DNA of 64,000 bases from Planctomycetota bacterium (GTDB lineage: Bacteria; Planctomycetota; UBA1135; GCA-002686595): positions 186,001 through 250,000 of the forward strand of contig JAEUHY010000015.1 in the NCBI GenBank assembly GCA_016795325.1. The letters are read 5' to 3'. Of this stretch, positions 13,159-27,172 are shown piece after piece (position 1 is the first letter of the stretch; every line of letters starts with the position of its first letter). The position numbers and the translations under genes are program-made. Below the pieces are notes generated by a model. The model was not told the DNA's origin, searched no databases, and saw only the letters and a list, made by a program, of their open reading frames with translations.

Positions 13159-14562
13159 ATGCGGGTTCTCCTGGTCGCCCACAACTACCCTCCGGCGCAC
13201 ACCGCCGGCGTGGAACAACACACAGCGCAGGTCGCGCGCGAGCTCGTGCGGCGCGGCGTGGCGGTCGACGTGTTCTGCGCCGAGAAGGACATCGCGCGCA
13301 GCGACGGCCAGCTCGTCGAGCGCGAGCACGAGGGCGTGCGCGTGTTCGAGTTCACGAACAACCTCGCGTACGAGTCCTTCCGGCAGACGTGGCGCTTTCC
13401 GGCGGCGCTCGAGACGTTTGCGCGGGTGCTCGAACGCTTGCGCCCGGACGTGGTGCACTTCCAGCACCTGATGTACCTCTCGTCGGAGTGCCTCGCCGCC
13501 GCGCGGGCGCAGGCGGCGTGCGTGTTCACCTTGCACGACTACTGGCTCCAGTGCGCGCGCTTCGGCCAGCGTCTGCACCCGGATGGATCGCACTGCGCGA
13601 CGATCGACCTCGCGCGCTGCGGCGACTGCATGGCGAGCTTCAAATTCCGCCAGGGCGCGATGGAGCGCGTCGCCGGCCGCTGGATCGCGGACGTGCGGAA
13701 AAGTTTCGGCGTGGATCTTTCGGCCTCGGCGAAACAGGCCGCGCGCAAGCTCGGTTTGGTGCGCAGCGGGGCCGGGGCGCCCGACGCGGGCCGCGCGGCT
13801 GCTCTGAGCGAGGATCTGCGCGAACGCGAAGCGACGCTGCGTGAAGCCGTGCTGCGCGACGTCCAGCGGCTGATCGCGCCCTCGCGCTTCCTGCTCGAGC
13901 GTATGGTCGAGTGGGGCATTCCGCGCGAGCGGCTGGAGCTCGTGCGCATGGGCGCCGAAGTCGATCGTTTCGCCGCGTTTCCGCGCGCACGTGCGGCTGG
14001 CGCCGGTGAGGGGCCGCTGCGCGTCGTGTTCCTCGGGACTTTCGCGCCGCACAAGGCGCCGCTGCTGCTCGCGCAGGCCTGGGGCGAGCTTCCGCCCGCT
14101 CTGCGCCAGAACGCCACGCTCGAGTTCTTCGGCTCGGGCGCGCACTACCCCGACTATGTGGATGAGCTGCGAAGCGCGGCCGCCGCCGTCGGCGCCCGCG
14201 TCGAAGGCGTGCTCACGCGCGACGGCGTAGCGCGCACGATGACGAGCGCCGATTTGCTCGTCATGCCGAGCGTGTGGTGGGAGAACGCACCGTTGGTGCT
14301 GATCGAGGCCGTGGAGGCGCGCACGCCGATCCTGGTCAGCGAACTGGGAGGCATGGCGGAGTACGTGCACGAACGCCCGTGCGGCGCGACGTTCCGCGCC
14401 GGCGACCGCGCGGATCTGGCGGCCAAGCTGGGCGAATTGCTCGCCGATCGCGCGCGCTTGCGAGGCTTCTATGCCGGCGCGGCGCCGGCGCCGACGATGG
14501 CCGACAACGTGGAGCGCATGCGTGCGATCTACGTCGAGGCGCTCGCGTCGCGCGGCCGCTAG
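13159..14562 (+). CDS. Family 4 glycosyltransferase
   Basis: A 467-residue GT-B enzyme transferring a sugar from an activated donor. The N-terminal domain opens MRVLLVAHNYPPAHTAGVEQ (a GT4-type acceptor-side loop after beta-1). The donor-binding domain has FLGTFAPHKAPLLLAQAW and the E(x7)E-type motif around PSVWWENAPLVLIEAVEA. Between the halves lies a Cys-containing insertion (HDYWLQCARFGQ ... CGDCM), seen in GT4 enzymes that modify surface polysaccharides. The ATG is preceded by little leader, 15 bases after the hydrolase stop. Acceptor and donor are unknown; cell-surface glycan synthesis is an inference from family only. Confidence 0.88.
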   Translation: MRVLLVAHNYPPAHTAGVEQHTAQVARELVRRGVAVDVFCAEKDIARSDGQLVEREHEGVRVFEFTNNLAYESFRQTWRFPAALETFARVLERLRPDVVHFQHLMYLSSECLAAARAQAACVFTLHDYWLQCARFGQRLHPDGSHCATIDLARCGDCMASFKFRQGAMERVAGRWIADVRKSFGVDLSASAKQAARKLGLVRSGAGAPDAGRAAALSEDLREREATLREAVLRDVQRLIAPSRFLLERMVEWGIPRERLELVRMGAEVDRFAAFPRARAAGAGEGPLRVVFLGTFAPHKAPLLLAQAWGELPPALRQNATLEFFGSGAHYPDYVDELRSAAAAVGARVEGVLTRDGVARTMTSADLLVMPSVWWENAPLVLIEAVEARTPILVSELGGMAEYVHERPCGATFRAGDRADLAAKLGELLADRARLRGFYAGAAPAPTMADNVERMRAIYVEALASRGR

Positions 14563-14933
14563 CTCGACTGCGCGGCTCGGTCGCGGCGACGGAAACACGA
14601 CCGCGCGGCCGAGAAGTGGGGCTCGGATGACGAACTCGTCCCCGGTGTCGATTCAGCTGAGGCGGCGGAATTTTTCCTCGGCGAGGTGGCGCGCCCTCGA
14701 GCCGATTGCGGACTGGAACGACGCGGCGCGCACGCTCTCGGAGTTCCTGGATTCGCTGTGGGCGTATCGAGCAGGACACGCGGCCAGAGCGCGAGGGCAC
14801 GAGCTTCGCTCGCGCGCCACCTTGCGCAGCATCGCTGTCCGATCGTCGCACGGGCAGTTCCGCGCGCGCCAGGCGGCGCAACTCGTCGCTGGTGGGGGAA
14901 GAGCGCCGCGCCCACCTTAGAATCCTCGCCCCC
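14563..14933 (+). other. Intergenic stretch without a supported gene
   Basis: 371 bases between the glycosyltransferase and the GH38 gene. Short open frames exist on both strands but none has a start with a ribosome-binding site, a recognisable motif or conserved-looking composition. The sequence just before the GH38 start (GGTGGGGGAAGAG) may contribute to its expression. Nothing else is seen. Confidence 0.4.
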
Positions 14934-17621
14934 ATGTCACGTCTGCGCGGTTTCGTCGTCTCCCACACCCACTGGGACCGGGCCTGGTACCTGAGCTTCC
15001 AGCAGTACCGCGTGCACCTCGTCGAGCTCATCGACGGCTTGCTCGAGTTGCTCGAGCGCGACGTCGACTTCAAGTCGTTCACGCTCGATGGCCAGACGGC
15101 GGCGCTGGAGGACTACCTCGCCATTCGGCCGCAGAATCGCGCGCGCATCGAGAAGCTGGTGCGCGCGGGGCGGCTCGAGATCGGGCCGTGGTTCGTGCTG
15201 CCCGATGCGTTCCTGCCCAGCGGCGAAGCGCTGATCCGCAACCTGCGGCGTGGCTTGGCGCGTTCACGCGAGCTCGGCGCGACGCCGCGCGACGGCTACA
15301 TGCCGGATTCCTTCGGACACATCGCGCAGATGCCGATGATCCTGCGCGGCCTGGGGCTGCGCTCGTTCCTGTTCATGCGCGGGCTCTCGAAGGAGCAGTG
15401 GGAGCGACTGGGCTGCGAGTTCCGCTGGCGCGCGAGCGACGGCAGCGAAGTGACGACGATCTACCTGCGCGACGGGTACCTCGACTCCGCCGCGCTCGGC
15501 CATCCCGAGCAGTTCGGCGACTTCGAGGGCCACGAGCCGGAGGTGGAGCTCGCCGTGGAGCGGCTGCGCGCGTCGCTGAAGGCGCGCGAAGGCAAGCTGC
15601 ATTCGGGCGCGGCGATCCTGTTCAACGGCTGCGACCACATGCCGTTCCAGCCCGAGCTCCCCGACCTGCTCGACGCCGCGCGCACGCAGATGCCGGAGGT
15701 CGAGCTGGTCCACTCGACGATCGCGGCGTACATCGACCATGTTGAAGCGAGCGGAGCGAAGCTCGCGCTCCACGAAGGGGAACTGCTCGGCAACGAGCAC
15801 AATCCGATCCTGTCGAGCGTCTGGTCGACGCGTGTGTACTTGAAGCTCGCCAACCACCGCGCGCAGTGGCTGCTCGAGCGCGTCGCGGAACCGCTCACGG
15901 TCGCGGCGGGCGCACGCGGGCGCGAGCTCGCGGCGCTGCTCGACGAGGCGTGGCGCCTGCTCTTGCTCAACCATCCCCACGACGACATCTGCGGCTGCAG
16001 CATCGACGCCGTGCACCTCGACGACGAGGCGCGCTTCCGCGAGGTCGAGCAGATCGGGACGAGCGTGGCGGCCGAGTGCGTGCGCGAATTGGCGCGGAAA
16101 GCCGGCGTGCGGCGCGATGGCACGACGCAGTGGCTGTGCGCGCTGCGCACGAGCGCGAGCGACGCGCCGGAACTCGTCGAGGCGGAAGTGTTCTTTCCGA
16201 AGGTCGACGGCGAGAGCGAGCCGCTGTCGCTCGAGCTGTTCGACGCCGCGGGGCGCGCCGTGCCTGTACAGGTGTTGGAGCGGCAGGAAAAGGCCTTTCG
16301 CGCGCTGCACCTCGACACGGGCTGGGGCACGCGCTTCCGCATCGCGTTCGTGCTCTCCCAGCCTGCGCGCTCGCTCGTGTGGCTGCGTGCGGCCCCGAGT
16401 GAGCGCGTCGCCGGCGCCTCGGGTAGCTCAGCGACCGCCATCGAGAACCGCGCCTGGCGGGTCAGCGTCGGCGCCGAGGGAAGGGTGGCGCTGGAACACC
16501 TGCCCACGGGGACGTTGCTCGCCGACGCGCTCGCGTTCGAGAGCGTGAGCGACGTGGGCGACGAGTACACCTTCGGCCCGCTCGCGGACGAGCCTGCGCT
16601 GACGACGCGCGGACTGCCGCCGGTCCACGTGGCGCGGCTCGAGTCGGGCCCCGTGTTCGACGAGTTGCTCGCGAGCTGGAATCTCGAACGTCGGCGCGCG
16701 CAAGACGATGCGGAACCCGCGGTCGTCAGCGTGACGCTCCGCATCCGACTCGCCCGCGACGGCGGCGCGCCGCTGCTGCGCATCGAGACGCTCAACGGCG
16801 CCGAAGATCACCGATTGCGCCTGCTCATCGCAACCGACAGCGCAGCGACCCGCTCGATCGCGGGAGGCGCGTTCGAGCTGCGCGAGCGTTCGGTCGCGCA
16901 CCCGCACACGCCCGAGACCGCGCCCGAGCGCTACAAGGCTTTCCCCGGCGAATTCGAGTACCCCACGCAGTTTTCGCGCGACGTCGTGTTGGTGCGCGGC
17001 GCGCGCGGGACGCTGTCGATCGCGCACCGCGGACTGCACGAGTACGAGCTACTCGCCGGCGAGCGGACCGAGGTCGCGCTCACGGTGCTTCGATCCGTGG
17101 GCAAGCTCTCGCGCGGAGATACGCGTTGGCGGCGCGTCCAAGCGGGCCCGAGCCTCGACACGCCCGACGCGCAGTGCATCGGCGCCCAGGTCTGCGAGGT
17201 GCAACTCGACGTGCACGCGCTCGATGCGCCGCCGAGCGTGGTCGCGGCCTCTGCGCTCGCGTTTTCGCAGCCTACCTACGTGAGCACGGCGCGCCTCGTG
17301 CGGTTCGGCGCGAGCTCGACGCTGCCCGCGGCGCCCGCCCGCTTGGTGGAGCTCGACAACGCCGACTTCGAGCTCTCGGCCTGCAAGTTCGACGATTCCG
17401 GCGCGCGCGTGGTCGTCCGACTCTGGAATCGCGTGCGCGAAGCCCGCAGCGCGCGCGTCGCCCTCGGCGCCGCCGCTCTCGCCGGCCGCAACGTCGCGCG
17501 GGTCGCGCTGTGCGACCTCGACGAACGCGAGCAACGCGCGCTCTCCCACGAACAAGGCTCGGTGCGCGTCGACGTCGCGCCGCATGGCCTCGTGACCCTC
17601 GCCTTCACCCTCGACGCATGA
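14934..17621 (+). CDS. Glycoside hydrolase family 38 alpha-mannosidase (mannosylglycerate-hydrolase-like)
   Basis: An 895-residue enzyme, close in length to E. coli MngB (877). The start MSRLRGFVVSHTHWDRAWY places the zinc-binding HTHWD motif at residues 11-15; there is no signal peptide, so it is cytoplasmic. PDSFGHIAQMP carries the expected nucleophile/zinc ligand Asp125, and NHPHDDICGCSID (His347, His349, Asp350) completes the metal site. The C-terminal half is the beta-sandwich region of the family. The retaining reaction releases alpha-linked mannose from small glycans or mannosyl-glycerate-type compounds; the precise substrate is not evident. It is the first gene of an operon with overlapping downstream genes, and an AGE-family epimerase there could process the released sugar. 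Confidence 0.92.
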   Translation: MSRLRGFVVSHTHWDRAWYLSFQQYRVHLVELIDGLLELLERDVDFKSFTLDGQTAALEDYLAIRPQNRARIEKLVRAGRLEIGPWFVLPDAFLPSGEALIRNLRRGLARSRELGATPRDGYMPDSFGHIAQMPMILRGLGLRSFLFMRGLSKEQWERLGCEFRWRASDGSEVTTIYLRDGYLDSAALGHPEQFGDFEGHEPEVELAVERLRASLKAREGKLHSGAAILFNGCDHMPFQPELPDLLDAARTQMPEVELVHSTIAAYIDHVEASGAKLALHEGELLGNEHNPILSSVWSTRVYLKLANHRAQWLLERVAEPLTVAAGARGRELAALLDEAWRLLLLNHPHDDICGCSIDAVHLDDEARFREVEQIGTSVAAECVRELARKAGVRRDGTTQWLCALRTSASDAPELVEAEVFFPKVDGESEPLSLELFDAAGRAVPVQVLERQEKAFRALHLDTGWGTRFRIAFVLSQPARSLVWLRAAPSERVAGASGSSATAIENRAWRVSVGAEGRVALEHLPTGTLLADALAFESVSDVGDEYTFGPLADEPALTTRGLPPVHVARLESGPVFDELLASWNLERRRAQDDAEPAVVSVTLRIRLARDGGAPLLRIETLNGAEDHRLRLLIATDSAATRSIAGGAFELRERSVAHPHTPETAPERYKAFPGEFEYPTQFSRDVVLVRGARGTLSIAHRGLHEYELLAGERTEVALTVLRSVGKLSRGDTRWRRVQAGPSLDTPDAQCIGAQVCEVQLDVHALDAPPSVVAASALAFSQPTYVSTARLVRFGASSTLPAAPARLVELDNADFELSACKFDDSGARVVVRLWNRVREARSARVALGAAALAGRNVARVALCDLDEREQRALSHEQGSVRVDVAPHGLVTLAFTLDA

Positions 17622-18532
17622 TCACCGGAACGTTTCTCGACGAGATCAGCCACGACATCCCGTCCGCCAACTGGAGCCGCGAGGAGTGGACCCGCGACTT
17701 CGCGGCCATGAAGGCCTTCGGCATCGACACGGTCATCCTGATCCGCGCGGGCTACCAGGATCGTTGCGCCTTCGACTCGAAGGTGCTGCGCAAGCGCCAC
17801 GGCTACCTGATCGTGCAGGAGGACTTGGTCGGCCTGTTCCTCGAGCTCGCCGCACAGAACGGCATGACGCTGTTCTTCGGGACCTACGACTCGGGCGAGC
17901 ACTGGATGAAGGGCGAGCACCAGCAGGAGATCGACGTCAACCTCGCGTTCACCGAGGAGTTCTTCGAGCTCTACGGCAAGAGCCCGGCCTTCGGCGGCTG
18001 GTACATCAGCCACGAGATCAACACCTTCGACGACAGCGTGATGCGTGTGTACGAATCGCTCGCGCGCCACCTGCGCGCACTCAAGAAGGCGCCGATCCTG
18101 ATCTCTCCCTACATCCGCGGCGCGAAGCAGTTCGGCACGACGATCGCCCTCGCCGAGCACGAGCGCGAGTGGGCGCAGGTTTTTGCGCGCATCGAGGGCC
18201 TAGTCGACATCGTCGCCTTCCAGGACGGGCAGGTCGAATACGCGAAACTGCCCGAGTTCCTCGAGCTCAACTCGCGCCTCGCGCGCAAGCACGGGCTCAC
18301 CTGCTGGTCGAACACCGAGAGCTTCGACCGCGACGTGCACATCAAGTTCCCGCCGATCGCGTGGCCCAAGTTGCGCCACAAGATCGAGGCCGCGCGAGCC
18401 GCCGGCGTCGACAAGCTGATCACCTTCGAGTTCTCGCACTTCCTCTCGCCGAACTCGATGTTTCCGTCCGCGAAGGGGCTGCACCGCTTCTACATGGAGT
18501 GGAAGCGCGCCCAGGAGGCTCAACGTGGCTGA
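17618..18532 (+). CDS. DUF4434-type TIM-barrel protein (putative glycosidase-like)
   Basis: A 304-residue protein whose ATG overlaps the GH38 stop as ATGA, indicating translational coupling. The sequence resembles DUF4434 proteins: an opening GTFLDEISHDIPSANW, a segment describing the next beta-strands (GIDTVILIRAGYQDR), and the conserved GGWYISHEIN with a Glu at the position expected for an acid/base residue in GH-like barrels. FQDGQVEY and TCWSNTESF follow later. No signal peptide. Its position between a mannosidase and a sugar epimerase suggests a role in handling the same glycan. Catalytic activity has not been established for the family to my knowledge, so function is inferred from context. 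Confidence 0.75.
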   Translation: MITGTFLDEISHDIPSANWSREEWTRDFAAMKAFGIDTVILIRAGYQDRCAFDSKVLRKRHGYLIVQEDLVGLFLELAAQNGMTLFFGTYDSGEHWMKGEHQQEIDVNLAFTEEFFELYGKSPAFGGWYISHEINTFDDSVMRVYESLARHLRALKKAPILISPYIRGAKQFGTTIALAEHEREWAQVFARIEGLVDIVAFQDGQVEYAKLPEFLELNSRLARKHGLTCWSNTESFDRDVHIKFPPIAWPKLRHKIEAARAAGVDKLITFEFSHFLSPNSMFPSAKGLHRFYMEWKRAQEAQRG

Positions 18533-19742
18533 GATGACGACTGCGCCCTCGCGCGCGACGCTGGAGAGCTGGCGCGCGCGCATGCACAACGAACTCCACA
18601 AGAGCGTGCTCACGTTCTGGATGCGCCATTCGCTCGACCGCGAATTCGGCGGCTACTTCAACTGCCTCGACCGCGACGGCCGGCGCTTCGACACGAAGAA
18701 GCACGTCTGGCTGCAGGGTCGGCAGGTGTGGATGCTTTCCAAGCTCTTCAACGAAGACCGCTCGCGCGTCGAGCTCTTCGACGCGGCGACGCTCGGTGCG
18801 AAGTTCCTGCGTCAGCACGCGCGCCGCACCGACGACCAGGTGTACTTCTGCCTCGCGCGCGACGGGAAACCGCTCACGCTGCAGCGCAAGATGTTCGCTG
18901 CGTGCTTCTACGTGATGGCCTTCGCCGAGTACGCGCGGGCGAGCGGCGACGCGAGCTACCGCGCGCTCGCGCTCTCGCAGTTCGACGCGATCCTGCGTTG
19001 GGTCGAGGATCCCAGGCCGCTGGGCAAGCCCGTGCTCGCAGGCAACGTCGCGACGAGCGAGCTCGCCGTGCCGATGATCCTACTCAACCTGGTGGCCGAG
19101 CTGCGCGGCGCGCCGGGTTCGTCGACCTTCCACGACCGTTCCTACTACGACGCGCTCGAGCGGCGCTGCGTCGCCGCGATCCGCCGCCACCACCGCCCCG
19201 AGCGCGGCTTGGTGTTCGAGACGATCGCCGCCGACGGCGCGTTGCTCGACGCGCCCGAGGGGCGTCTCATCAACCCCGGCCACGTGATCGAGTGCGGCTG
19301 GTTCCTGCTCGACTACGCGCGGCGCACCAAGGACAGCGCGCTGCGCGACGAGGCGCTCGCGATGATCCGCGGCGCGCTCGACTTCGGTTGGGACCGCGAG
19401 TTCGGCGGCATCCTGTACTTCCTCGACAGCGAGGGCTTCAGCCCGCAGCAACTCGAATGGGCCATGAAGCTGTGGTGGCCGCACTGCGAGGCGATCGTGG
19501 CGCTCTTGATGGCTTGGCGCGACACGAACGACGCGAGTTGGTTCGCGCGCTTCGAACAGGTCGCCGACTGGACCTTCGCGCACTTCCCCGACGCCGAGCA
19601 CGGCGAGTGGTTCGGCTATCTGGATCGACGCGGCGCGGTGTCGCAGCGCTTCAAGGGCGGGCCGTACAAGGGCTGCTTCCACGTGCCGCGCGCGCTGTGG
19701 CTGTGCGAGCGCGAGCTTGCGGCGGCGCTGGCGACGCGCTGA
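18525..19742 (+). CDS. AGE-family sugar epimerase/isomerase
   Basis: A 405-residue (alpha/alpha)6-barrel protein of the N-acylglucosamine 2-epimerase/cellobiose-epimerase/mannose isomerase group. A GTG start is preferred because AGGAGG lies six bases upstream; ATG 18534 would be 15 bases from it. The reading frame overlaps the previous gene by eight bases. Family features: REFGGYFNCLDRDG near the N-terminus, WLQGRQVWM, a first catalytic-type His in NPGHVIECGWFLLDYA, and a second in LWWPHCEAIVALL. Beside a mannosidase, the most economical role is interconverting released mannose (or a mannoside) with glucose or fructose; this is inference. It ends exactly where the convergent gene ends. Confidence 0.85.
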   Translation: MAEMTTAPSRATLESWRARMHNELHKSVLTFWMRHSLDREFGGYFNCLDRDGRRFDTKKHVWLQGRQVWMLSKLFNEDRSRVELFDAATLGAKFLRQHARRTDDQVYFCLARDGKPLTLQRKMFAACFYVMAFAEYARASGDASYRALALSQFDAILRWVEDPRPLGKPVLAGNVATSELAVPMILLNLVAELRGAPGSSTFHDRSYYDALERRCVAAIRRHHRPERGLVFETIAADGALLDAPEGRLINPGHVIECGWFLLDYARRTKDSALRDEALAMIRGALDFGWDREFGGILYFLDSEGFSPQQLEWAMKLWWPHCEAIVALLMAWRDTNDASWFARFEQVADWTFAHFPDAEHGEWFGYLDRRGAVSQRFKGGPYKGCFHVPRALWLCERELAAALATR

Positions 19743-19750
19743 TCAGCGCG
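19735..19750. other. 16-bp perfect palindrome made by two convergent stop codons
   Basis: CGCGCTGA followed by TCAGCGCG. The central TGATCA contains the TGA stop of the rightward epimerase gene and, on the other strand, the TGA stop of the leftward glycosidase gene, with zero bases between the two genes. There is no T-tract, so a bidirectional intrinsic terminator is not supported. Confidence 0.6.
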
Positions 19751-22148
19751 CCGGCACGAGCAGCAACGCCGATGCGACCTCGCGCGCTCCGGAGTTGTCG
19801 GAGGGTCGGTTGATCAACGCGCCGTTCACCACCAGCGACGTCGAGCCGCCGCCGTCGAGGTTGAGCGCTTCGACGGCGCCGCGGGCCCACAGCTCCCGCG
19901 CAAGTTCGCCGAGCGTGGCGCCTGCGCTCTCCGCGCTGCGTCCGTCGACCACCAGCAACAGCAGCCTCCCGTCGTGCGTGTAGCCCAGCGCGGTGCGCGG
20001 GTGGCGCGAGTCGAGCGAGCCCATGCCGGATCCGAAGAAGACCTCTTCTTCGAAGGTGACACGCGGCTCGCCGCTCTCGATCAGCATCGGGCCGCCGCCG
20101 AGCGCTAGCCGGGGCTTCCACGGGCGCGCCTGCGCCGGGAATTCGGCGCTGGGCCGCAGCTGTGGCGCGCCTGCGCGGATCGGGCTGGGCGTTGCGTAGC
20201 GCACGAGCTGGCCTTCCACGTCGTACACCCAAGTGACATCGAATCCGCCGTCGGCTTCGATTCCGAACGCGGCGCGCGTCGGATAGAAGCTCGCGCCGTC
20301 GCGCACGAGGGAAGGCGCGTTGTGCGACAGCAGCTTGCCGTCGTCGACCACCAGACTGAGCGACTTGCCGCCGCCGAAGTAGCCGCTGTTGATCGCGACG
20401 AGCGCACCCGCGTCGCGCGCGAAGGACTCGACGGTCTCGAGGCCGTCGGAGTCGTCCGAGAGCTGCGCGCGCGGACGCCACTCGGCTGAGGGGCGCGCCT
20501 CGACGAGCCAGGCGCGCAGCGGGAGTTTCGGCTCTCGCGCTTCGTACACCCGCAGCGAGCGCGGCAAGCTCTGGTTCAGGTCGTCGCGCGGCTTCCAGTC
20601 GAGAGCCATTCGCCGCACCCTGCGATCCGGAGCGCGGTCTGTGAGCGCGACCAGTTCGCCGATGCGACGCGGCGCGTCGCTCGCCGGCAACGCGAGCGTC
20701 ACATTGCACGTTTGCCCACGCCGCCAACCCACGCCCGTGAACTCGACCCAGCCCTCGCGCCAGCGTTCGACCTGAGCGACGTTCACGTTGACGAAGACGT
20801 CAGGGCCCTGCTGCACGCTCAGCTGCAACTCTCCCGAAAGCCCATGGTTTTTTGGCAGCCGCAGGGCCAGTCGCGGCCCGCCGTCACCCGTCGTCGTCAC
20901 CGACCAACTCACCGTTACCGACGCGCCGACCGGCAACTCGAGCGTCTTCCCACCGTCGAGCGCCTTCGCGCCGCCAGCCTTCGGCGCCGCGGGCTTCGCC
21001 GGCGGACGCCAGTCGTCGCGCTCGCGCCACGGCGCCGCCGCAGGGCGTTTGTACGGTCCCTTCGCGAGCGCCGTGAGCCGGGCGCCTTGTTCATCGAGCA
21101 GGCCCTGGTGGAAGAAGTACACCTCGCCGCGCAGCTTGCGTTTGCGGTTGAGCTCGACCGACTCGCACAGGAGCTCATCGCTCGCGCGCCAGTCGCCGAT
21201 GCGCGAGAGCACGCCGGGGAACAGCTTGTCCTTGCGCTTGGCGATCCAATCGAGCGCGAACACGCTGCCCAGCATCTTCTCGTACTCGTCGAACGAGCGC
21301 GCGTACACCTGCGGATGCAGCGCGTCGAGCAGCCCCAGCTCCATCCAACGCTCTTGCTGCTGCAAGTACTCGGTGTAGGCCCAGCTCGGCGCGCCCGGCG
21401 CCATCGAGAAGATCAGCCCCGGTCGCACGGCCTTCACGTCGGCGCGCAACTCCTGCAAGTACTCGGTCAGCCGTTCCGCGCGCCACGCGAGCCAACGCGG
21501 CTCCTTGGGGTCCTTCGGCGCGTCGCGCCCCGTGTCCGCCTTGTACGCGGCGACGACCTGCGGGTTGTAGCCCGCTTCGCACGGCAGTGCCGGCAAGCGG
21601 TCGTCGCCCTGCACGCCGTCGACGTCGTAGTTGCGGCACACCTCGAGCACGAGATCGCTCATCCAGCGCTGCACGGCCGGGTCGAGCGAGTTGAGCCAGG
21701 GATAGTTGTTCTTCACCACCGGCTTGCCGTCCTGTCCGAGCGCGGCCCACTCGGGATGCACGGCGAGGATCTTGCCGGGGTACCTCACGTGGCCGTCCGT
21801 GAAGCCGTACTCGAACCACGGAATGACTTCGATGCCGCGCTGGTGCGCTTCGACGATCGTCTCCGCCAGCGGATCGCGCCCCTCGTAGCGCGGGTCGATC
21901 GCCTGTCCCGTGAGCGAGCGCATCACCTCGCTCGGATAGAGCGTCGCGCCCTTGCTCCACACGACCGGGAACACGACGTTGATCCCGCCCTTGGCGAGCG
22001 CGTCCAACCCGGCTGCGATCTCGGCGCGCGAATCGAAGAAGCTCGTGCTCGTGTTGGGGATCCAGACCGCGCGCAATTCGCGCTCGCCGGCGAGGGCGCA
22101 GTCTGCGAAGCACACGGCGGCGGCGAAGATCGCTATCAGGCGTTGCAT
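19743..22148 (-). CDS. Secreted GHL10-type glycosidase fused to a phosphodiester glycosidase (NAGPA) domain
   Basis: An 801-residue exported protein with signal peptide MQRLIAIFAAAVCFADCALA. An ATG further upstream would only add Arg-rich sequence. Residues about 22-420 match the GHL10/DUF187 barrel: RAVWIPNTSTSFFD, GINVVFPVVWSKGATLYPS, WFEYGF and a long loop ending GVQGDDRLPALP. After a linker and beta-rich region (about 420-560), residues about 575-800 form a phosphodiester glycosidase domain like the N-acetylglucosamine-1-phosphodiester alpha-N-acetylglucosaminidase family: AINSGYFGGG, LALGGGPMLI, RTALGYTHDGRLLLLVVDGR and LNLDGGGSTSLVVNG. It probably attacks extracellular glycans or sugar-phosphate-capped polymers. 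It is divergent from the formate dehydrogenase genes across about 250 bases. Confidence 0.85.
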   Translation of the reverse strand: MQRLIAIFAAAVCFADCALAGERELRAVWIPNTSTSFFDSRAEIAAGLDALAKGGINVVFPVVWSKGATLYPSEVMRSLTGQAIDPRYEGRDPLAETIVEAHQRGIEVIPWFEYGFTDGHVRYPGKILAVHPEWAALGQDGKPVVKNNYPWLNSLDPAVQRWMSDLVLEVCRNYDVDGVQGDDRLPALPCEAGYNPQVVAAYKADTGRDAPKDPKEPRWLAWRAERLTEYLQELRADVKAVRPGLIFSMAPGAPSWAYTEYLQQQERWMELGLLDALHPQVYARSFDEYEKMLGSVFALDWIAKRKDKLFPGVLSRIGDWRASDELLCESVELNRKRKLRGEVYFFHQGLLDEQGARLTALAKGPYKRPAAAPWRERDDWRPPAKPAAPKAGGAKALDGGKTLELPVGASVTVSWSVTTTGDGGPRLALRLPKNHGLSGELQLSVQQGPDVFVNVNVAQVERWREGWVEFTGVGWRRGQTCNVTLALPASDAPRRIGELVALTDRAPDRRVRRMALDWKPRDDLNQSLPRSLRVYEAREPKLPLRAWLVEARPSAEWRPRAQLSDDSDGLETVESFARDAGALVAINSGYFGGGKSLSLVVDDGKLLSHNAPSLVRDGASFYPTRAAFGIEADGGFDVTWVYDVEGQLVRYATPSPIRAGAPQLRPSAEFPAQARPWKPRLALGGGPMLIESGEPRVTFEEEVFFGSGMGSLDSRHPRTALGYTHDGRLLLLVVDGRSAESAGATLGELARELWARGAVEALNLDGGGSTSLVVNGALINRPSDNSGAREVASALLLVPAR

Positions 22149-22395
22149 GCGCACGAAGTCGAGCTCGGTGGAGGGGCGGTGGCTGGCTGGGCGCGCGCCC
22201 GAGCCGCGGGGTCGAGGGCCTAGTTGGTCGAGCGGTCGGGCGCGGTCCAATTGGACGGCAGCGCGCAGGTGCTGGGAAGGGTCTGTCCCGCTCGTTCTGC
22301 GCGCGCGCGCAAGACTCATTGCCGCGGCGCTTGCGGGCGTGCGGAGCGCGGTCCATCCTCATGGCGGCGGCGAGACCGCCAGAAGGAAAACGAAC

Positions 22396-24324
22396 TTGAA
22401 GAAGCGCTCCAACGGGCCTGCGCGGCCGCGACTGACCCAACCGCTCGTGCGCGACAACGGCGTGCTGCGTCCCGCCACCTGGGACGAGGCGCTCGAGCGC
22501 GCCGCGGAAGGATTCCGGCGAAACCGGCAGACTCGGGGCGGGGACGCACTGGGCATCTTCAGCTGCTCGAAGTCCACCAACGAGGTGAACTTCCTGGCGC
22601 AGAAGCTCGCGCGCGTCGCGTTCCGCACCCACAACATCGACAGCTGCAACCGGACGTGACACGCACCTAGCGTCGTCGGTCTGGCGACGGTTTTCGGTGC
22701 GGGCGGCGGCACGAACTCCTACCGCGAGGTGGAGCAGGCTGACGTCGTTTTCTTGTGGGGCTCGAACGCGCGCGAGGCGCACCCGATCTGGTTCCACCAT
22801 CTGCTCAAGGGCGTGAACAACGGCACGCGCCTGTACGTGATCGACCCGCGGCGCACATCGTCGGCGCAGTGGGCCGACGTGTGGCTCGGTCTAGACGTCG
22901 GCAGCGACATCGCGCTCTCCAACGCGATGGCGCGCGAGATCATCCACGCAGGCCTCGCGCACCGCGAGTTCATCGAGCGCGCGACCGAAGGATTCGAGGC
23001 CTACCGCGCGTCGGTCGAGCCGTACACGCTCGAGGTCGCCGAGCGCATCACCGGCGTGCCGGCGGACGTGATCCGCGAGGCCGCGCACACCTTCGCCAAG
23101 GCGAAGAACGCGATGATCTGCTGGACGCTCGGCATCACCGAGCACCACGACGCGGTCGACAACGTGCTCGCGCTGATCAACCTGACGCTGCTCACCGGTC
23201 ACGTCGGCAAGTGGGGCTCGGGCTGCAACCCGCTGCGCGGTCAGAACAACGTGCAGGGCGGCGGCGACATGGGCGCGATTCCCAATCGCTTCCCGGGTTT
23301 CCAGGACATCCTGGATCCGGCGATCCGCGAGCGCTTCGAGAAGCACTGGGGCGTGCCGCTCGCGCCGCGCTACGGCCTCAACTTGACGCAGATGCTGCAC
23401 GCGATGGAGCGCAAGGAACTCACGGCGCTGTACGTGATCGGCGAAAACCCGGCGCAGTCCGACGCGGATTCCAACCACGTCGAGGCCGTGCTGCGCGGGC
23501 TCGATCACCTGGTCGTGCAAGAGATCGTGATGACGCGCACGGCCGAGCTCGCGCATGTCGTGCTGCCCGCGGCGGCGACGTGGTGCGAAGGCGAAGGCAC
23601 CGTGACGAACAGCGAGCGTCGCGTGCAGCGCGTGCGCAAAGCCGTCGAGCCGCCCGCGGGCGCGAAGGACGAGCTGTGGATCCTGTCGGAACTCGCGCGC
23701 CGACTCGGCGCCGACTTCGGCGCGCCGACGGCCGAGTCCGTGTGGAACGAATTCCGCGCAGTCGCGCCGCACTTTGCGGGCGGCATGAGCTACGCGCGCC
23801 TCGAGGCGCTCGGCGGGCTGCAGTGGCCTTGCCCCGACGAATCGCATCCTGGCACGCCGTTCCTGCACGGACGGCTGTGGGAAGAGCCGCGCGGCGGTCG
23901 CGCAGCCCCGTTCTCGATCGTGAAGTGGGAAGGGCCCGTCGAAAAGCCTGACGCGGAGTATCCGCTGCTGCTCACGACCGGTCGTCGGCTCGAGTCCTAC
24001 AACACCGGCGTGCAGACGGGCGGCTACGTTTCGCCGCTGCACGTCGGCGAGCGGATCAGCCTGAGCGCCGAGGACGCGCAGCGCCTGGGTGTGGCCGACG
24101 GGGCGCTCGTGACCGTACGCTCGCGCCGTGGCCAGCTCGAGGCGCCTGCGCACATCGATCGTGCGCTGCGTCCGGGGCTGGTGTTCATGACGATGCACTT
24201 CCCCGACGAGATCAACACCAACGTGCTCACCATCGACGCCGCGGACCCCAAGTCGGGCACCGCTGAGTTCAAGGCCTGCGCCGTGCGCGTCGAACTCGCT
24301 GCGCAAGCGGCGCACGTGAGCTGA
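22396..24324 (+). CDS. fdhA: Formate dehydrogenase catalytic subunit, selenoprotein (UGA read as selenocysteine), lacking its Fe-S domain
   Basis: A 642-residue molybdopterin (or tungstopterin) enzyme oxidising formate to CO2. The start is TTG with AGAAGGA eight bases upstream, giving MKKRSNGPARPRLTQPLVRD. An in-frame TGA at 22657-22659 is codon 88, in IDSCNRT-U-HAPSVVGL, exactly where the family has its active-site Sec/Cys followed by His. The frame continues without interruption to the real stop, and a SECIS hairpin directly follows the TGA. Downstream motifs are intact: FLWGSNAREAHP, IDPRRT, GCNPLRGQNNVQGG, ENPAQSDAD, and the C-terminal pterin domain with TTGRRLESYNTG. The usual N-terminal [4Fe-4S] domain (four Cys, CIKG) is absent and is found at the end of the next protein, seven bases downstream. 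Annotation pipelines would split this gene at the UGA. Confidence 0.9.
22657..22701 (+). promoter_or_regulatory. Selenocysteine UGA codon and bacterial SECIS hairpin
   Basis: Immediately after the TGA, CGCACC (22662-22667) pairs with GGTGCG (22696-22701), and CGTCG (22671-22675) pairs with CGACG (22685-22689). The inner helix extends by a U-G and a C-G pair (22676-22677 with 22683-22684), leaving the five-base apical loop GGUCU (22678-22682). From memory of the E. coli fdhF element, its apical loop is also GGUCU and also begins 18 bases after the UGA. The loop G and U contact SelB in that system. Confidence 0.88.
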
Positions 24325-24331
24325 ACCGAGC

Positions 24332-27172
<2,841 letters not shown>

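Follow-up and report, generated by a model that had tools for sequence, protein, structure and literature searches.

A predicted selenocysteine formate dehydrogenase with a divided alpha chain in a planctomycete

The catalytic gene and its in-frame TGA

The window, a 64,000-nucleotide stretch of one contig from a Planctomycetota bacterium, carries on its plus strand two adjoining genes assigned to a formate dehydrogenase (FDH). The first (22396–24324) encodes the molybdopterin- and MGD-binding catalytic subunit, as recognised by TIGR01591, PF00384, PF01568, and phmmer, and specifies 642 amino acids with selenocysteine (Sec) predicted as residue 88. Its TTG start codon is preceded by the Shine–Dalgarno sequence AGAAGGA (22381–22387), read directly from the sequence; relatives start with TTG or GTG at the equivalent position behind a comparable element (GGAAGGA or AAAGGAA in L021, L022, and L036). 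The original prediction held that this start and ribosome-binding site make the gene complete, which is correct for the reading frame but not for the FDH alpha chain, whose [4Fe-4S] domain lies on the next gene.

A TGA at 22657–22659 (codon 88, within SCNRT-U-HAPSVVGL) is followed by the catalytic His89 and is the sole interruption of the frame, which is otherwise open on both sides as anticipated. Open reading frame calling with the standard code returns two fragments (21952–22659 and 22729–24324), just as had been foreseen for an ordinary gene caller. In a phmmer alignment covering residues 59–689 of E. coli FdhH (1aa6; E 1e-142), codon 88 falls on the Sec of that enzyme, and in other solved FDHs it stands opposite either Cys or Sec; by alignment, the TGA thus occupies the Mo-binding Sec/Cys site, as originally proposed.

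Scanning of GTDB contigs and 60 relatives yielded 89 close loci with the same divided gene arrangement, of which 69 have TGA at this codon and 20 a Cys codon. His89 and Arg281 are invariant in all 89, and the catalytic gene retains the FDH active-site set of Sec/Cys-His plus Arg. Since many loci from independent assemblies share the TGA, the suspicion that it is a sequencing error for a Cys codon can be set aside. On this comparative evidence, the in-frame TGA 22657–22659 is confirmed, and the prediction that it encodes selenocysteine in a planctomycete FDH gene is supported.

The SECIS hairpin and selenocysteine machinery

A bacterial SECIS element with a six-pair upper stem is predicted at 22672–22688 (plus strand) from folding, sequence comparison, a recoding null, and the spacing seen in E. 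coli fdhF. Its GGUCU apical loop (22678–22682) begins 18 nt past the UGA; loop and spacing had been likened to those of fdhF, and inspection of the E. coli K-12 sequence found both to be identical. For comparison across relatives, 61 distinct Sec stretches and 19 distinct Cys stretches were used: GGUCU is present in 61/61 of the former and 0/19 of the latter, and the upper six pairs are kept in every one of the 61, including C-G/G-C swaps. The Gly codon within the loop is GGT in 69/69 loci versus 16% across Gly codons of the same genes, albeit these sequences are related and the counts non-independent.

The hairpin had been described as two-tiered over the 42 bases after the UGA, and here only the upper stem and loop are conserved. 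Freely varying pairs of the lower tier are compatible in just 23 and 27 of the 61 sequences, and its always-conserved C-G pairs sit at positions dictated by Pro and Gly codons, so the lower tier is unsupported. The fold energy of the window hairpin is weak (z −1.2 over 51 nt; −2.1 over 45 nt), and under a protein-preserving recoding null, 33% of sequences fold equally well and 2% contain both the loop and the six-pair stem. An Rfam scan of the SECIS region gave no relevant family match. Single-sequence fold energy was too weak to serve as proof of a SECIS and was replaced by the recoding null and by comparison with Cys relatives. The latter is the decisive comparison, and it supports a putative SECIS immediately downstream of the UGA for the upper stem and loop only.

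The genome (6.48 Mb in 64 contigs, about 90% complete) contains all four components of the Sec machinery whose presence had been predicted. On the contig of the window itself (C59), tRNA-Sec (608858; 72.5 bits; ARAGORN SeC, anticodon tca), SelA (596806; 489 bits), and SelD (604503–605447; locus L018; 317 bits) lie within about 12 kb of one another, and SelB is found at 233728 of contig C28 (345 bits over the frame). The selD gene also has an in-frame TGA, in the motif CAGUAGK, in agreement with the UxxK signature given for Sec-SelD (PMC13188914); together with the FDH gene, this makes at least two selenoprotein genes in the genome. The belief that Sec use is uncommon in this phylum was mistaken, because SelA exceeds its cut-off in 239 of 392 Planctomycetota genomes. 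A 2016 paper likewise reports Sec and a Sec fdhA for planctomycetes, with the fdhA of Planctomycete P1 resembling the present case in being accompanied by the full Sec machinery (PMC4807772).

The notion that the TGA is a true stop or a sequencing error, leaving a pseudogene or two fragments, draws on the broken standard gene call but is refuted by the full Sec machinery and by a TGA conserved at the equivalent codon of 69 split loci and 19 contiguous FDHs in independent assemblies, with the frame conserved on both sides and the SECIS loop lost, within the split clade, only in Cys relatives. Just as improbable is translation of the UGA as Cys or some other residue through readthrough or a reassigned code. 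Relatives in the Streptosporangiaceae do demonstrate that Cys is tolerated at the site; however, the presence of SelA, SelB, SelD, and tRNA-Sec argues against any non-Sec reading, the SECIS loop accompanies TGA but neither TGC nor TGT, and TGA is still used as a normal stop codon, terminating the catalytic gene itself (24322–24324).

The 20 Cys genes of the split type form one clade (Streptosporangiaceae plus Actinacidiphila), and the loop is absent from all of them. As this clade is nested among Sec genes, Cys is the derived state there. Among 29 Sec-FDH genomes tested, 25 have a SelA match above the cut-off, three a partial match, and one no match. SelA also exceeds the cut-off in 13 of the 20 Cys-FDH genomes (L053, L054, and other actinomycetes), and Sec use therefore probably persists for other proteins in these organisms. 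Two FDH loci from the family of the window organism (L108 and L109) have an in-frame TAG besides the Sec TGA, perhaps through assembly error or decay.

Division of the alpha chain between two genes

The second gene (24332–27172, plus strand) is a single open reading frame that starts 7 nt past the catalytic stop and encodes a 946-residue partner subunit. Along its length follow NuoE-like, NuoF-like (FMN/NADH), Fer2, and Fer4 modules and a C-terminal Molybdop_Fe4S4 domain. The NuoF-like module (25016–26203; residues 229–624) matches TIGR01959 with 461 bits, and the partner thus offers the layout of an NAD-linked FDH, comprising NuoE and NuoF modules with an FMN/NADH site and an Fe-S chain. Its terminal domain (27008–27166; PF04879, 59.1 bits; CPYCGVGC...LCIKG) corresponds to the Mo-proximal [4Fe-4S] domain that is the missing N terminus of the FDH alpha chain: the TIGR01591 profile is divided, with positions 51–672 on the catalytic gene and 1–49 at the C terminus of the partner. 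Hence the N-terminal [4Fe-4S] domain looked for on the catalytic chain is absent there and encoded downstream. The contiguous E. coli FdhF stretch LCLKGYYGWDFINDTQILTPRLKTPM is represented in the window by LCIKGRFGWRFVQP, which closes the partner, and by PRLTQPLVRDNG near the start of the catalytic gene.

Gene order among relatives is catalytic gene, NuoE-NuoF, and Fer2-Fer4-Fe4S4, the latter two being fused in the window, L022, L023, and L036. The partner Fe4S4 domain lies downstream in 67 of the 89 split loci, most of the remainder ending too early to show it, and in L095 there is no partner within 7.6 kb downstream. Its four Cys and Lys936 are invariant in 67/67 loci. Thirty loci have at most 100 codons 5′ of the Sec/Cys codon, too few to hold an Fe4S4 domain on the catalytic chain; in E. 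coli FdhF, Sec is residue 140. In several loci, mostly from Acidimicrobiia (L050, L051, L055, L059, L073, L075, L077, and L085), the catalytic gene and NuoE-NuoF are not adjacent but lie up to about 2.2 kb apart.

A maximum-likelihood tree places the split FDHs on one side of a single branch (84 rows, support 100), and by the labels of the sequence records the clade spans Planctomycetota, Gemmatimonadota, Acidobacteriota, Chloroflexota, Actinomycetota, Myxococcota, and Pseudomonadota. FDHs from the same order that are 44–48% identical have the normal contiguous layout. A mirror-tree comparison of the catalytic gene and the partner tail gave a Spearman coefficient of 0.59, which is supportive but not specific. 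From these comparisons, the alpha chain is judged to be split between the proximal-cluster domain and the Mo domain in a permuted operon.

It is very unlikely that the enzyme is not an FDH and uses a different substrate, for example nitrate. The next-best families are indeed NasC/NapA-type reductases; however, the catalytic gene scores 683.5 bits against the TIGR01591 equivalog cut-off of 666.25, whereas NasC reaches only 421 against a cut-off of 1100, and both the retained Sec/His/Arg active site and the NuoEF partner fit an NAD-linked FDH. The alternative that the catalytic protein works without a proximal [4Fe-4S] domain or with some other partner, the downstream domain serving another purpose, is unlikely too, if slightly less so. 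Some members of the DMSO-reductase family do lack the N-terminal cluster (PMC10100899), but the downstream domain is exactly the missing piece, its ligands do not vary, and it is found in the same gene cluster throughout a clade of several phyla.

Among bacterial selenoprotein families, FDH alpha is the most widespread (PMC5029168), and the window gene is accordingly of an ordinary kind as a selenoprotein; it is the split, permuted layout with its fused partner that constitutes a variant worth describing. In the openly accessible literature, no described split FDH was found besides a match of subunit sizes in Actinomycetospora chiangmaiensis DSM 45062. Its FDH3 (FdhA3/B3/C3), described as cytoplasmic and NAD+-dependent and detected by proteomics, consists of a Sec-containing subunit of 640 residues and two others of 614 and 316 residues, and formate removal depends on selenium (PMC7176365). 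In length, the 614- and 316-residue subunits correspond to the NuoE-NuoF and Fer2-Fer4-Fe4S4 products in the split clade, a likeness of size only, and three genes are present versus two in the window, where beta and gamma are fused. The split may thus not be unprecedented. E. coli FdhF shares the Sec-His active site, the SECIS loop, and a catalytic region that aligns over nearly its full length, but has its own N-terminal [4Fe-4S] domain and no NuoEF partner, and FdhD is present in E. coli. Rhodobacter capsulatus FdsABG (6tg9) is likewise an NAD-linked FDH and combines Fer2/Fer4/Fe4S4 clusters with a NuoE/NuoF-like diaphorase; however, FdsA is a single chain with Cys in place of Sec, the gene order is different, and there is no such split.

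The proposed enzyme and the absence of FdhD

The locus very probably encodes a cytoplasmic, NAD-linked, Mo- or W-dependent FDH with a selenoprotein catalytic subunit, a split alpha chain, and a permuted operon, formate being the predicted substrate by homology. Guided by the GGUCU hairpin that closely follows it, UGA 22657 would be decoded as selenocysteine by Sec-tRNA and SelB, with Sec88 ligating the molybdenum or tungsten. Electrons from formate would leave the metal via the [4Fe-4S] cluster on the second polypeptide, whose Fer4/Fer2 clusters would then relay them to FMN and NAD+, likewise on that partner. The Sec site, its machinery, the SECIS conservation, the split, and the domain content are seen in the sequences; from them we infer the physical complex, the electron path, NAD+ as acceptor, and the direction of the reaction. 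Against this proposal weigh the unexceptional energy of the window hairpin, the lack of a partner within 7.6 kb downstream in locus L095, and the lack of a detectable FdhD. The layout implies that, across several phyla, the metal site and the cluster closest to it can be encoded on different chains, and it provides a natural system for swapping electron partners in CO2/formate enzymes.

In E. coli, FdhD sulfurates the Mo cofactor and is required for the FDHs to be active. FdhD (PF02634) was found neither in the window genome nor in the other 80 family genomes searched (0/81; best E 0.05), most of which carry a Sec-FDH, and positive controls were detected; the single-contig family genome G030 has a Sec-FDH, and FdhD was not found in it either. 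A relatives search identified a TGA-containing FDH in 29 of 37 family genomes. Elsewhere in the order, FdhD is present in 15 of 19 sampled genomes from other families, versus 0/22 (Fisher p 6e-8, uncorrected for kinship), and it is present in 8/8 Gemmatimonadota genomes tested. The whole family of the window organism thus seems to be without the usual FdhD maturation protein, and this is the most interesting loose end of the analysis. A search for a substitute beside the FDH in 18 stretches of family genomes found only FDH/diaphorase genes and shadow open reading frames to recur widely. MobA, considered as a marker of cofactor synthesis, is matched in 76 of the 81 family genomes, with none over the curated cut-off, and the same is true of most controls.

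E. coli FdhF made without FdhD is stable yet inactive; fdhD is known to be missing from some FDH-bearing organisms, such as halobacteria, and how FDHs are sulfurated where it is missing is a stated open question (PMC10609526), on which its family-wide absence here bears. It is tentatively proposed, with a little less than even confidence, that this planctomycetotal family has lost FdhD while keeping Sec-FDHs, some with the Mo-proximal [4Fe-4S] cluster in trans, and that an undescribed FdhD-independent route supplies the essential Mo-sulfido ligand.

Upstream of the FDH operon, the minus strand of the window (13159–22319) encodes proteins related to carbohydrates: a GT4 glycosyltransferase, a GH38 mannosidase, a DUF4434 protein, a GlcNAc 2-epimerase, and a GHL10 protein.
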